From positions 124,001-188,000 of IMG/VR virus record IMGVR_UViG_3300049043_000112: a DNA stretch of 64,000 bases. One strand, given 5' to 3'. Positions 2,284-38,118 of this stretch are shown piece by piece. Position numbers and translations under genes: made by a program. Position 1 is the stretch's first letter, and every line of letters starts with the position of its first letter. The notes beneath the pieces were generated by a model. That model saw only the letters and a list, made by a program, of their open reading frames with translations. It ran no database searches and was not told the DNA's origin. Source of the stretch: a virus.

Positions 2284-5200
2284 ATTGTTCTTTGAAGTTA
2301 AGGCTAACTTCAACAGTTCCACTTCCACCAGCATCAAGTTTTTTAGCAGTAATAAAGGTTGCTTCAAGATTGTTATTGTCTGGTGTAATAACTCGTTTCT
2401 CTGGTCCAAATATTTTTTTCATATCAATAGTTTCAGTAGAATTTGCACCAATATAAAGAGTGTCTCTTTCTGTATAGGTTCTTAAACTTTGTTCATTCTG
2501 AACATCAATCAAAGCAGATGATAATCTAGAAATTTCTTCAAAGTTAGTTGGTGGAACGCCAGTTGTGTCTGCATTTCCACTCGCGTTTGTAATTTCTATT
2601 GCATCGCCAAGAATATACCACTTAGGACTTACAGTTCTTTGGAAATCACCAATTGTTTCTTTAACACTAATATTATTAATTTGTGAATAATCTCTTAGTT
2701 TTGCAACTAAGTAAAGTGGATATGGATTGTAATTATAAAGTTTGGTTGAATTGATCGAACCTTCCGCTGTAATATTAATAGGTCTAATTAGAATTGTGAA
2801 GTTAGACCCTGCGCTTAAAGTTTGATCAATCTCGATATAAGAATATGTATCTCCACCAGAACTATAACTACTTGTAACACCAACAAATCTTGAATTTGTT
2901 ATGTTGACAGTTCCACCCGTTTGCAGAATTGCAATCTGCCCGCCATTGTAATCAATTGCTGGAAATGTTCCTTGAATTTGAACATAAAGATTTCCATCTG
3001 GAAGACCTGTTTTTGGATTTACATTATATTCATTTACATTTGGAATTTGCAATGGATCTTGAACATTAATAGTTGCTTTTGAACACACACCACCTGCAGG
3101 ATTTGCAAGTGTTGGAATACGATAATCAATACCCATACGAATAGATGGTTGTAGTGGAGCCCATCCTTCGGCACGTTCTACACCTTCTTCATTGGAAACG
3201 GTATAACTATGAGTGTGTTCACCATAAAGAATATCACTATTTGGTAACACTGTTGTTGTGCCAACTCCAGGAATAACAAATCCATTTAAAGTATTTGGAA
3301 GACTTGTATCTGGTTGCTTATCAGTGATTCCAATTAGAAAATCTGCAAAGTGACTATAACTATCACCAGCACCAGGATTTACAAACTGCAATTCAATTCT
3401 AGAACCAGTAAATCCAAAATCTGATGCTGCATAACAATCATAATTACTTAATCTAATCTGGTGTGGATATGTAACACCAATTCCAATTGTTGTTGTAATT
3501 CCAAGAACTTGGTCATAAACTAAATTATCAGAAGATGCAATATTACGGTTCGTTAAAGAAAAACTAGACAATCCTCCGAATCCTTTAATAGTTGCAGTTT
3601 GTGTATTCACATTGACGCTTGTAATATAAGCGTTATAAATCGATGGTGCGATAATCTTAGCACCAACATCATCAGCAGTAAAAGAACTTACACCAACAGT
3701 TGTGATTGTATTTGCATCACTAAACTGAATATCAAGATATCTTCCACTTTCTGTTTTTGCAATTCCAGGAGTATAAACGTGACCAAATCCAGGGCAGGCA
3801 GTACAAGTTACAACTTTAACTTCTGTTAATGAATCTGAAGATATATTTAATTCTGTAGGAATAATCAGTTTTTTGTTTTGAATTGGAACTCCATCACGAT
3901 TTAAGATAAAATCTTTTGGTGTAATTCCAAGAAGTGATTTAATTTTTGAAGAACTAATTGTTCTTTGCTTAGAACTTGCCGAATAAATTTGTGACGTTCC
4001 TTCATCACCACCATCAATATAATATGAAGCACCATACTTATAGATGTATTGTGGTGTTCTAACGTCTCCAGTATTTGCAATGTTCAGCGCATACTTAAAT
4101 CTAAAGTAAGAGTCTTGTAAACAAGGAGACCCTAAGGAGTTTTCAATCACTAAAGTATGAATAACTACCCATCGAGCATCGCCATTATCGGTTGGAATAT
4201 AGGCATAGAATCTTGCACCGATTGCACCATACCAACCAAATTCAATCTTATACATTGTAACTTTTTCTGGATTCAACAGATATCCAGAAGGTCCATTTGA
4301 ATTTAATGGATCTCCATTGAACTTATCTCTTGGAATTTGAATTGTCCAATACAATTCATCATCGAAAGGATCACCACTTTCAATACGTGTTTGATCTGCA
4401 AGAGTTAATCCACTTCTTTCTAAAGCACTTCGTTCTAAAGGAATTGTACTTCTACGAACAATATAAAATTGTCCAGCATCAATTCTAAACACATATTGAT
4501 CTGTTGGATTTGAAATACCCCATTCTAAAGTAATACCAGTTACAGGTTCAGTAGATGATCTTAAACCAAATGTAAATCCACTTATTCTACCAGGTTGATA
4601 TCTAAAAACTCTTCTTGATTGTAAGTAAGCATATCTTTGGTCTGAATCAGAATATCCTGGTCGTGTTGTTGTAGAATCTACATAATAATTTAAAAGTAAA
4701 ATAATTTTAGTGAATGTAAATGGATTTCCAGTTACAGGATCAATTAAAATACTATCTTTAATGTCTCTCCAAGTATCAGTCCAGGTATCAATTTGTCTAA
4801 ATGCAGCCGTAATTCCTGCAACATAATTGATATCACCAGATTCGACATAAGCAAAGCTAGGAGATAAGAATTTATCTTTCCAATCAGAAGGATAAGAAGT
4901 TCCTCCAGGACCATTAAAATAATTATACAAATTGTTTCCTAGTTGAATAAAGTTAACATACTGACTAAAAAGTGTGTTATTATAAAGCCCTAGTCTTTCA
5001 AACTTTGGTCCAAATGGAAATGAATATGGAGTAGGAAACGCAGTAATTTTAATTGCAGATTCTTGTGTCTCTTCCGTTCTTGTTGCATCATAACGATTTC
5101 CATAAACTTCATTTCCTCTATTATCCCAGGATCCAAAACTAGTTCCTTCACTAAAAGAATAAAATTCAAATTCATCAGGATCTAGTCCATATGATGAAAC

Positions 5201-5942: not shown

Positions 5943-8900
5943 TCACTGCTCCTCCCAGGTAATACTTGCAGAAATATCCGCTGCTGATGCTCCGCTATTG
6001 TATGTTGTTTGTGATGAAGCACATAGATATAAACTATCTACTTTATTTGTGAGAGGGAAAGAAAGATACTCTTTGTTGTAATCAAAGTATGGTGATAAAT
6101 CATACTGTGCTCCAGATGCAGGTATGAAAATACTTGCCACAACAGTACCAGTTCCAGGAATTGGACTTCTTACTTGAGGATTAACTTTAATTGAAGATAA
6201 TGCTGCAAGAGTAAATTCGGTTGTAATGCCAGAAACTCCATTTCCAGTTGGATCACTATTTTCTTCTTTCAGGAAACTATTTGTGGTCGTCAGAACAATA
6301 TTATCAGATGTTGAATTCAGGGCATAGAAATAATAACCACTAACTGTTCCTCTATTTTCAAGGTAACCTAAAACTGAAATTGGTTTTTGAGTTACATCAT
6401 TCTGATAATATCCTCTAAAGTATCCATAAACTCCAGTATTATCTGAGAGATAAGATGAATTACTTACACCAACCTGTGTTGGATTTCCAGTCTTTCCAAT
6501 ATTTGCACTTGCAGAAAGAGAAAGAGTTCCTGTTGTTGAAGCAGTTGTTTGGAAAATAGGAGTTTTTAGGAGATTTAATTTAACAACTCCAGTAGATCCA
6601 GAAGAAAGACGAGTTGGATAAACTTGAGTTCTATTTCTTACATTTCTTCCAGTGCTGCTTTGAATAAAATCTCTACACTTCAGACCAATCAATGGAGTAA
6701 GTCTATCTGGAATTACTGTAATTGTAGATAATGATGTTGTATTCAATGGAGCATTCAGATAAAGTCTTCTATTCGTTGTATCTACAAAATTAACTTGAAT
6801 ATTTTGGTCTAAGGGATTTGAAGTAACAACTTTGGCACCAACATAGAAAGATGTTGAAAGTCCTGCAGATGTTCCAGCAGTGATATATGGATCTGATGTG
6901 GAAACTCCTGCATTTGTAAGTACAACTTCTGTTCCACCAGCACCGACAGTGTATAGTCTCTTTGAACCATAAACACTTAGAGTTGATGGAGTTGAATAAC
7001 TAAAGAGTTTTACAGTTCCTCTATCTCCACCATCAATATAGTATGAAGCACCATACTTAACAATATGTTCAGAGGATGAACCATAAGAGAACGTAGATGC
7101 AAGTCTCTTATTGTTCGCATATCCAAAACGATTTGCTCCACCACCACCATAAACAAGATAAGTAATTGGAAGAGTAGCATTTCCAAGAGATGAAACTTTC
7201 AGTTGATTAGATGCTCTAAGGTGATGAACTCTTACCCATCTTGCTTCACCATTGCTTACAGGAACATAAGCAAGGAATAGAGCACCAACAGCACCATACC
7301 AGGAGAATTCAATCTTATACATTGTAACCTTGGTTAGGTCAATGTCCCAGATGCTGGTATCAGTTAATATTTCTCCTGTATCAGGATCAACTACAGGTTC
7401 CCCTGCCCTCTTATCACTTACAACATCACTATAAAGTAGGTCTTCAGTCTCTCCATCAAGACAATCACCACTAAATCTAAATCTTGGAATACGATATTCA
7501 TAAACGTTCCAGTATTCTTTCTTTACGTTTTGATTAACCCACTTATCATAATAAGTATTAACTGCATCAATTTGATCTTTAAGAGTTGATGTATCAGAAA
7601 CTCCGAGAGAAGTGTCAACATATCCTTCATTGTTTCCATCACCATCTTCATACAGATATGGAAACATTCCAGTTGGTTTAACTGTAGTATATTTCGTTCT
7701 CGATGCATTAATCAGAGCACCACTCGTTGGTTGTACAAAAGGAACTGGAGTAATTAAAACGTGTGATGAAATTCCAGTAACATTTGTAATTCCAGTTAAG
7801 GAACTTCCATCTAAATTATTCAGTGTCAGTGTTCCTCTACCAGTCGAACTATTGACAGAAACAGATGCGAGTCTATAAATCTTAGTATCTGTAAATCCAG
7901 TAATGACTCCAACATTTGTCCCTTTGGAGTATGATACGTATTGCCCAGTGGAAAGACCAACTGCCATTCCACCAGATTGATAATAAGTAGGAACCGTCGA
8001 AATACCAATATTAACGGTAAATGAAGTGCTTGAATTAACTTGTAGAACATTATATCCAAAAGTTCTATTTGGATAATATTTTGGAGTAACTGGATCAAGA
8101 TAACAAGTCATCCCAATGCCACTTAGAGTTACATACTTACCAGCATCAAAACCGTGAGCAGCAGAGGTCGTAATGACCATTAAACCTGTGCTTATATCAT
8201 ACGTTGCATTTGTAATGGTTTTACCAAGACCAGCAACTGAAATCGTATTTCCACCAGTAACTGATGTAATTCCAACTTGTGATTCACTTTGAAGTAGTGA
8301 TGGATCATAAACTGCTGCATGAGTCATCAGCAGATTATCTCTTAAAATTACAAGGTCACCAAACTTTTTAGGTGTTGCTACTGGATTTTGAAGCGCAGTT
8401 GAATTACTTTGTGACTCTGAACCTCTTGCCGACAGGGGATTTAAAGGATTCGTTCTTCCATAGTCTTGAGTTTGCTGACCTGCGCCAGTTCCAAATGTAA
8501 GAGGGTTTTCATAAATGATGGATTGTGTTCTTCTTACAACACTAAAGTTATCTCCTGTTCCATCATTTCTAGATTCCCAATAATATCCATCATAGTTATC
8601 AAAAATACCATACTTACGAACCGCAGGGTTTTGGACTGATGCACCATCATCATTGATTAGAGATGTTTTAACACCAAAAGTCGCTGCTGATACACGTCCT
8701 GGTTGGTATCTAAAGAATCTCTTTGATGTTAGGATGGCAGTTCTATCTGCTGGACCTTCAATCAGTGCTCCAGACTCTTCAGGGACGTGAGTTAGACCCC
8801 ATCCCATCGTTTGACCCACACCAGAATAAACACCAGTTCCAGCGACTGTGGAGTATTGTTCAGGAGATGGTGACCATTCTGTAGGGTTTACATCATAAGT

Positions 8901-16349: not shown

Positions 16350-16433
16350 TGCGAGTAGGGAGACTTGAACTCCCACGGGCATACGCCCAACAGATTTTAA
16401 GTCTGGTGTGTCTACCGATTCCACCATACTCGC
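16350..16433 (-). tRNA. tRNA-Leu(UAA)
   Basis: The minus strand folds as a class II tRNA. Acceptor GCGAGTA pairs with TACTCGC, anticodon stem CCAGA pairs with TCTG, and the loop CTTAAAA gives anticodon UAA. There is a long variable arm (TTGGGCGTATGCCC region) and T-arm GGGAG TTCAAGT CTCCC. CCA is not encoded. The tRNA reads UUA, a codon that is very common in the AT-rich genes of this window. Confidence 0.93.
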
Positions 16434-16443
16434 TTGTGGGACC

Positions 16444-16472
16444 ATTATAACTCTTAGAGTCTTAATGGTCAA
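16444..16472 (-). promoter_or_regulatory. Sigma-70-type promoter between tRNA genes
   Basis: Minus strand TTGACC (16467-16472), exactly 17 bases, then TATAAT (16444-16449). Transcription would begin near 16437 and produce tRNA-Leu(UAA) and the acidic protein. It abuts the 3' end of the CAU tRNA. Confidence 0.75.
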
Positions 16473-16547
16473 GTGCTGGTTGCGAGGATCGAACTCGCCT
16501 CCCATCGATTATGAGTCGATTGCATTCGCCAGATTGCTAAACCAGCA
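16473..16547 (-). tRNA. tRNA with CAU anticodon (Met or Ile2)
   Basis: Acceptor TGCTGGT pairs with ACCAGCA. The anticodon arm is ATCGA CTCATAA TCGAT, giving anticodon CAU, and the T arm is GCGAG TTCGATC CTCGC. The sequence alone cannot decide between elongator Met and lysidine-modified Ile2 reading AUA. The base after the acceptor stem is C rather than the common A. Confidence 0.88.
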
Positions 16548-16575
16548 TTCGCTATTCGCAAATAGAGAATAGCAA

Positions 16576-16667
16576 TAGGGACACCTGGATTCGAACCAGG
16601 ACCTCGCGGTAATCTGCCGCTAATACAAGGTATAAGCTTGCTGTTCTAACCGTTGAACTATGCCCCC
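16576..16667 (-). tRNA. Unusual tRNA, anticodon UAU with a long variable arm
   Basis: Acceptor GGGGGCA pairs with TGTCCCT (two G-U pairs), and the D arm is GTTC AACGGTTA GAAC. The anticodon arm is GCAAG CTTATAC CTTGT, with U33 and anticodon UAU. The T arm is CCTGG TTCGAAT CCAGG. Between the anticodon and T arms there are 24 bases that form their own hairpin (GCGG and CCGC). Bacterial tRNA-Ile normally has a short variable loop, so this is either a class II-like tRNA with an Ile anticodon or a tRNA carrying a roughly 21-base insertion. Confidence 0.75.
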
Positions 16668-37423: not shown

Positions 37424-37546
37424 TTAAGTTTGCTTTCTTTTACCTCCATTAAGAATAAATTCAACACCACGGTTTCGGTGGTCTTCTTTTTTATTTAGGT
37501 CAGGATTTGATGATTTGGTGTTCTTTGAGGAATTTGATTGTGTCAA
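37424..37546 (-). CDS. Possible 40-residue ORF overlapping glutaredoxin
   Basis: From TTG at 37546, AGGAGG just upstream, to TAA at 37424. The C-terminal part reads NPDLNKKEDHRNRGVEFILN and GGKRKQT, which looks like a real protein end. However, the ribosome-binding-like AGGAGG is part of the glutaredoxin 'LGG' codons, so the start is uncertain. It overlaps glutaredoxin in another frame. Confidence 0.3.
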   Translation of the reverse strand: MTQSNSSKNTKSSNPDLNKKEDHRNRGVEFILNGGKRKQT

Positions 37547-37742
37547 CAGAACCTCCTAACTTTTTATCATTACATATAACTTGTGGAAACGTAGCACCCT
37601 GACCAAATTCAGAATAGAATTCTTCTCTATTAAAGTGCTCTCCCAAATTATAAACCACAAAGTTACTTCCTGTCAACTCCAATACTTGTTTGACTTTATA
37701 GCAATATGGACAGTCCTCTTTGCTGTATACAGTGAAATTCAT
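37500..37742 (-). CDS. Glutaredoxin
   Basis: An 80-residue protein with the active-site CPYC at residues 11-14 (YSKEDCPYCYKVKQVL), the cis-Pro motif TFPQVICND and GGSVD. It reduces ribonucleotide reductase or other disulphides with glutathione, as T4 NrdC does. It follows the terminator of the candidate small RNA. TATAAATC-like AT-rich sequence just upstream could be its promoter. Confidence 0.92.
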   Translation of the reverse strand: MNFTVYSKEDCPYCYKVKQVLELTGSNFVVYNLGEHFNREEFYSEFGQGATFPQVICNDKKLGGSVDTIKFLKEHQIIKS

Positions 37743-37775
37743 AAGGTTTATAAGATTTATATTAATTTATATAAG

Positions 37776-37800
37776 AAAAAGGAGGGTATAAAACCCCCCT
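37776..37800 (-). terminator. Intrinsic terminator of candidate small RNA
   Basis: Minus strand AGGGGGGT TTTAT ACCCTCCT followed by TTTTC: an 8-pair stem with one G-U pair, a 5-base loop and a U-run. Confidence 0.85.
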
Positions 37801-37874
37801 TAGTAACCACCAACTCACCTCTTCACACCACTGAAGAGGGTCTTCATTCCCAAAGATACAAGGATGTTGAAGAC
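37776..37874 (-). ncRNA. Candidate small RNA (about 99 nt)
   Basis: It is bounded by a consensus promoter (37881-37909) and an intrinsic terminator (37776-37800), with no sensible ORF (a 9-codon start only). It folds into three stems: GGTCTTC with GAAGACC, CCTCTTCA with TGAAGAGG (37818-37839, loop of 6) and the terminator. This is the classical layout of a bacterial small RNA, here in a phage early region. The function and any target are unknown. Confidence 0.7.
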
Positions 37875-37880
37875 CTTGAT

Positions 37881-37909
37881 ATTATAAGGGATTTTTTGAA
37901 AGGTGTCAA
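37881..37909 (-). promoter_or_regulatory. Strong sigma-70-type promoter of candidate small RNA
   Basis: TTGACA (37904-37909), 17 bases, TATAAT (37881-37886): both hexamers perfect. The -35 lies in the last codons of the 70-residue gene. Transcription starts about 37874. Confidence 0.9.
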
Positions 37910-38118
37910 GCAGGTACTTCAGTCTCTTCTACAGGTTCTTCAGTTACTTCTGGTTCTGGAAGAGTTACTCCAGTTTGCTGTAGATATTCAATAATACCCT
38001 GAAGCTTAACTGCCATCTCTCTCTTTTCAACGACTTTAGTATTCAACTCTTGAATTTCTTGAATTAAGTCGCTTTGTTGTTGAATTGCAGACTGTAGGTG
38101 TAGTTGTTGTTCGTTCAT
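37906..38118 (-). CDS. Small coiled-coil protein with acidic tail
   Basis: A 70-residue protein: QQLHLQSAIQQQSDLIQEIQ and ELNTKVVEKREMAVKLQGII form a coiled coil. The end is Glu/Pro/Val-rich (LPEPEVTEEPVEETEVPA). Similar short helical proteins occur throughout T4-like cyanophage early regions. Expressed from the promoter at 38139-38167. The function is unknown. Confidence 0.65.
   Translation of the reverse strand: MNEQQLHLQSAIQQQSDLIQEIQELNTKVVEKREMAVKLQGIIEYLQQTGVTLPEPEVTEEPVEETEVPA

Follow-up and report, generated by a model that had tools for sequence, protein, structure and literature searches.

A putative cyanophage small RNA family with a dedicated promoter and terminator and a GGUGGU motif at two exposed sites

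To our knowledge, few small RNAs of lytic cyanophages have been found, and none acting in trans has had its role worked out. Yfr1 of cyanobacteria is a short RNA in which two hairpins flank an exposed conserved stretch, the core of which reads ACUCCUCACAC. Among the RNAs described in cyanophages, CfrI of S-PM2 is an antisense RNA of ~225 nt at the psbA 3′ end (PMC12197685, PMC5931967); wcaG, manA, PhotoRC-II and glnA (the glutamine riboswitch) have been described as leaders or cis-elements tied to particular classes of genes (PMC2864571, PMC9964418); and the abiF RNA (RF03085) is a non-coding RNA reported in cyanophage S-CREM1 (PMC9964418). Here we analysed a small RNA gene of ~99 nt at 37777..37875 (minus strand) of a 64,000-nt stretch of a virus record (IMGVR_UViG_3300049043_000112, positions 124,001 to 188,000), which is referred to as the window. 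Like CfrI, the window RNA would be an expressed non-coding RNA of a T4-like cyanophage, its expression being predicted, but it is intergenic, has three hairpins and faces no cis-antisense gene. Like wcaG, manA, PhotoRC-II and glnA, it is a structured cyanophage RNA found by comparison, yet none of these families matches it in Rfam, and the described link of the abiF RNA is to abiF genes rather than to a GGUGGU motif, again with no Rfam match at the window RNA. It shares with Yfr1 a short length and an exposed conserved stretch between structures, whereas the unpaired Yfr1 core is absent from its transcript, no Rfam match was obtained and none was found in the cellular genomes searched. The RNA thus represents a new family of phage small RNAs, a known kind of molecule, with an unusual two-site arrangement, and the described cyanophage RNAs differ from it in context.

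With the Rfam 15 covariance models, neither the window nor any of ten divergent loci gave a match above the gathering score at the RNA. The same scans detected the tRNAs of the window and, in the related contig L086, a glutamine riboswitch, which shows that the scan works. The original prediction, made from the window sequence, that the RNA matches no described family was therefore borne out for Rfam 15. A literature search, with partial coverage of subscription papers, yielded no description of such an RNA, and the paper on the Synechococcus phage S-SRM01, a carrier described below, mentions no small RNA.

The RNA gene is unannotated and occurs as a single copy in the 236-kb virus record that contains the window. 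The perfect TTGACA-17-TATAAT promoter that had been proposed was found on the minus strand, the strand having been left unstated before, with the -35 hexamer at 37904..37909 and the -10 hexamer at 37881..37886; it is a 12/12 match, and only two such sites were present in 16 kb. The 5′ end of the RNA is placed from this promoter and the 3′ end from the intrinsic terminator at 37776..37801 (minus strand), AAGGGGGG-UUUUA-UACCCUCCUU, whose stem spans 37801-37779 and is followed by T-rich sequence. Terminator-like sites numbered 32 in the stretch vs 8.8 in shuffled sequences, so this class of site is not noise here. The 100-nt transcript was predicted to form hairpin 1, hairpin 2 and the terminator, with a folding energy of -39.4 kcal/mol (z = -3.97), and both of the further stems claimed in the original prediction were thus recovered. 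Hairpin 1 (37839..37875, minus strand) consists of an outer stem GUCUU...AAGAC, an inner stem and a conserved 9-nt apical loop. Hairpin 2 (37819..37838, minus strand) carries the loop GUGGUG at 37831-37826, and a second copy of this motif was read from the sequence in the single-stranded linker, GUUGGUGGU (37806..37814, minus strand). A peptide-coding reading was rejected: neither the length nor the frame of the longest ATG ORF was constant among homologues, and no ATG ORF at all was present in 17 of 75 sequences, in agreement with the proposed lack of a meaningful ORF.

A blastn search against 50,697 phage records revealed one clear homologue, in the freshwater Synechococcus phage S-SRM01 (E = 2e-20), where the RNA occupies an unannotated gap immediately ahead of the glutaredoxin gene that also follows it in the window; all other hits in this collection were to just the terminator or were weak partial matches. 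Further homologues were collected from IMG/VR by searching with the glutaredoxin protein and DNA patterns and then with a covariance model, R1; the window RNA matches the covariance model at 124 bits. After parsing, 75 distinct RNA sequences were obtained from 154 locus occurrences (some contigs having been fetched twice), comprising viral contigs and the cultured S-SRM01; most are metagenomic contigs of unknown host. A divergent group with a different downstream gene (e.g. L117, L121, L141, L159 and L180) was found by R1 at E ~1e-5 to 1e-8, the E-values from models R1 and R2 being rough. Judged from the habitats of relatives, the carriers would be many freshwater and marine phages. Among 16 cyanophage records searched with R1 and R2, S-SRM01 was the only cultured carrier. 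No match was obtained with a strict exact pattern in 84,980 cellular genomes, nor with R1, under strict filters and with no positive control, in 42 genomes of the Cyanobium group, and a search of plasmids gave nothing convincing. MAFFT put the gap of stem 2 in the wrong place in A2, the mixed alignment, and the comparisons below are therefore based on alignments within groups and on anchored parsing.

Comparison of the homologues indicated that both internal hairpins and the terminator keep their pairing through compensatory changes. In hairpin 1 the inner pairs covary, and the core UUUGYRNCUUUGRGA is invariant or almost so. Hairpin 2 was represented by 28 distinct stems among 74 parsed homologues, for example CCTCTTCG/TGAAGAGG, CCTCTCT/GGAGAGG, CTTCCC/GGGAAG, CTGTTCT/AGAACAG and CCGTCT/GGACGG, around a GUGGUG or GGUGGUG loop. 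When the arms were swapped among members, the mean duplex energy rose from -9.3 to -5.3 kcal/mol for hairpin 2 and from -12.2 to -8.5 kcal/mol for the terminator, whose stem likewise covaries among relatives. In the divergent group, 96.4% of the pair cells were standard pairs, with 20 double-change cells, and the covariation score was reached by 0 of 500 shuffles, a count inflated by relatedness. Relatedness persists through such shuffling, and greater weight is therefore given to the diversity of stems and to the slide control, in which pairing fell to at most 50% once the partners were shifted by 1-3 columns. Conservation of the stems among relatives, the lack of which the original prediction had named as one possible refutation, was hence found together with compensatory changes and a fixed promoter geometry. 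These results also bear on the idea that the locus is only an insulator, with a promoter and a terminator that clutter the border of the late and early gene blocks but no function for the RNA. The position of the RNA between structural and metabolic gene blocks fits this idea, which would not predict conserved loop sequences or conserved stem pairing and, being disfavoured by both, is scarcely credible.

The promoter was compared in the 71 distinct members with enough upstream sequence. TTGACA was found in 66 of the 71, and in 70 of the 71 a 17-nt spacer was combined with exactly 6 nt from the -10 box to GUCUU at the foot of hairpin 1. Pairwise identity was 92.5% for the hexamers vs 38% for the spacers, which are near random. 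Read from the aligned sequences, this pattern is what selection on a promoter for the RNA would look like, and the fixed 6-nt distance to GUCUU places the 5′ end at the hairpin 1 foot. The upstream gene in the window (37906..38118, minus strand), which encodes a 70-aa protein of unknown function (phrog_20934), ends with its stop codon within the -35 box; this overlap cannot explain the promoter conservation, which is not borrowed from a coding region, because the upstream genes differ among members. Collectively, the promoter geometry and the stems strongly support the proposal of a dedicated, strongly promoted and terminated non-coding RNA, and the cyanophage appears to carry a real small RNA gene of ~100 bases with its own promoter and terminator, from which transcription is predicted. 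As a separate observation, GTCAA was present 0-8 nt before TTGAC in 33 of the 71 distinct members (~0.6 expected), for example in L010, L041, L088 and L001, where it forms an inverted repeat overlapping the -35 box; this repeat, absent at the promoter of the window RNA, is a possible operator.

Downstream of the RNA in the window lies a glutaredoxin gene (37500..37742, minus strand; Pfam PF00462), separated from the terminator by an AT-rich stretch, CTTATATAAATTAATATAAATC (37743..37775, minus strand), which is conserved in the glutaredoxin group. This stretch resembles a T4-type late promoter and would be a separate promoter of the next gene. Glutaredoxin follows the RNA in most loci, a vWA/peptidase gene follows it in the divergent group and other genes follow it in L049, L069 and L306, which argues for a stand-alone RNA cassette rather than the leader of one gene, and a leader of glutaredoxin was accordingly disfavoured. 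A cis-acting leader or attenuator, with the RNA forming the 5′ end of the next gene's mRNA and setting the read-through at the terminator, would fit the directly preceding terminator and the ~30-50 nt gap before glutaredoxin in most members, and native pairing between upstream sequence and the terminator was slightly better than swapped pairing (-9.10 vs -8.86 and -7.42 vs -6.92 kcal/mol). This gain of 0.2-0.5 kcal/mol, vs 3.6 kcal/mol for the terminator arms, could be explained by relatedness, and comparison of native and swapped energies revealed no strong alternative pairing with the terminator among members. Furthermore, the downstream gene changes (glutaredoxin, vWA/peptidase, an MSIVASKS gene, an MTEQQQHLQ gene), the terminator stems vary widely while the upstream elements are constant, so that a conserved antiterminator is not seen, and the glutaredoxin group has its own promoter-like stretch past the terminator. 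A cis role is thus unlikely, less firmly so for the glutaredoxin group, before whose gene most homologues lie. The genes for glutaredoxin, thymidylate synthase, phoH and an exonuclease are near the RNA in both the window and S-SRM01, and these neighbours, along with the sigma-70 type promoter, make a place of the RNA in the early region plausible.

The GUGGUG loop of hairpin 2 was almost invariant, and a second GGUGG/GUGGU copy was found in the linker in 56 of 74 homologues, in the terminator loop in 12 of 74 and in both in none. This second copy was present in 68 of 74, vs a mean of 7.6 and a maximum of 15 of 74 when the letters of the linker and terminator loop were shuffled, and most of the remaining six carried a near-variant (GTGAT, TTGGT or GTGGA). 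The terminator-loop members are related to one another, so that the independent events number fewer than 12, yet they include different terminator stems (e.g. L121, L304, L320 and L220). That the site is kept while its place changes points to a function of the exposed motif itself, and suggests an RNA with two binding sites for a putative partner. The broader proposition, of a widespread, uncatalogued RNA family of T4-like cyanophages that exposes GGUGGU in exactly two places, the second moving between linker and terminator loop, is advanced tentatively. In L222 (12585-12655, minus strand), a copy of the RNA promoter and hairpin 1 was also observed with an incomplete hairpin 2; it breaks off inside GTGGTG and runs on into glycine-rich, tail-fibre-like sequence, and reflects either recombination at the motif or an assembly chimera.

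Taken together, we consider it probable that the RNA is a stand-alone, phage-encoded small RNA acting in trans through its two exposed sites, most likely by pairing with CCACC-containing mRNA. Comparison establishes the RNA gene with its structure, promoter, terminator and two-site motif at the level of sequence, and its transcription, timing, action in trans and partner would follow from these features. The host RNA polymerase with its main sigma factor would transcribe the RNA early from its own strong promoter, starting at the foot of hairpin 1 and ending at its own terminator, to give a ~100-nt transcript with three hairpins, which the 5′ hairpin and the 3′ terminator would stabilize. GUGGU/GGUGG would be exposed twice, in the hairpin 2 loop and in either the linker or the terminator loop, and both sites would bind a partner in trans. 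As a first choice, pairing with CCACC stretches of mRNAs would alter translation or stability during infection, so that the RNA may serve as a host or phage regulator, as had been suggested.

The second choice, a sub-case of action in trans, is a protein sponge in which the two GUGGU sites sequester an RNA-binding protein of host or phage in the manner of CsrB/RsmZ, with a different motif. The resemblance lies in the way of working: a short motif is repeated, always at unpaired sites, and a second site in either the linker or the terminator loop would suit a single-strand-binding protein. The window RNA has just two sites, however, of GUGGU/GGUGG rather than the known sponge motif GGA repeated in hairpin loops, and we know of no cyanobacterial or cyanophage protein with GGUGG specificity, so a sponge is possible but doubtful. 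Almost all motif copies contain UGGU or UGGA, and the sites might thus bind the 3′ CCA ends of tRNAs (UGGU vs ACCA), for example as a decoy during take-over of translation; but a match of four bases is weak, a few copies read GUGAU instead, and a tRNA-specific element such as an anticodon-pairing loop was not seen, which leaves this reading very improbable.

For the preferred pairing with mRNA, a search of phage and host sequences yielded no firm target. CACCAC-type sites were weakly commoner near phage start codons (8 in 14 kb and 5 in 13 kb), not at matching genes. Of 151 genomes from the likely host family, 23 contained a 13-nt complement of the linker region, the sites shown lying mostly in unrelated coding contexts. 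In S-SRM01, two identical 25-nt leaders, TCTCAGTTCACACCACTGAACCATG, were found directly before ATG, near 89,338 and 90,322 of the record (3329-3353 and 4313-4337 in L354). These leaders can form a hairpin whose loop reads CACCAC. Over 14 nt they are complementary to the window RNA's hairpin 2; the same stretch is complementary to the hairpin 2 of S-SRM01 itself, with one G-U pair. Judging from this complementarity, the leaders and the RNA could meet loop to loop. The leaders were found neither in the phage of the window nor in three cyanobacterial genomes, and are hence kept only as a lead.

Besides many environmental phages, the family includes one cultured phage with its host (S-SRM01 and Synechococcus KCZYC6), which makes its function directly testable, and the two-copy rule provides a precise mutational prediction. 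Should the proposed action hold and the partner prove to be either a protein of the host or CA-rich leaders of a shared class, the RNA would be a general take-over RNA, of a sponge-like class unprecedented in cyanophages. The family also illustrates how conserved RNA genes of common aquatic viruses escape both annotation and Rfam.

Several further features were observed in the window and its relatives. A second perfect sigma-70 type promoter, TTGACA-18-TATAAT, lies at 37647-37676 (minus strand) inside the glutaredoxin gene, on the strand of the RNA. Immediately downstream of glutaredoxin, a short frame that lacks an ATG start (37424-37546, minus strand) encodes EDHRNRGVEFILNGGKRKQT. S-SRM01 likewise has a similar peptide, REDHFNRGVELILNNGGKRKQT, behind its glutaredoxin (L001, ~6400-6480). 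The frame may represent an extension by frameshift or else a small gene that starts at a codon other than ATG. The glutamine riboswitch of L086 (RF01739; 3320-3369, plus strand) is situated ~1.9 kb from the RNA of that contig, and three tRNA genes, Leu-TAA, Met-CAT and Ile-TAT, are clustered at 16350-16667 (minus strand) in the window.
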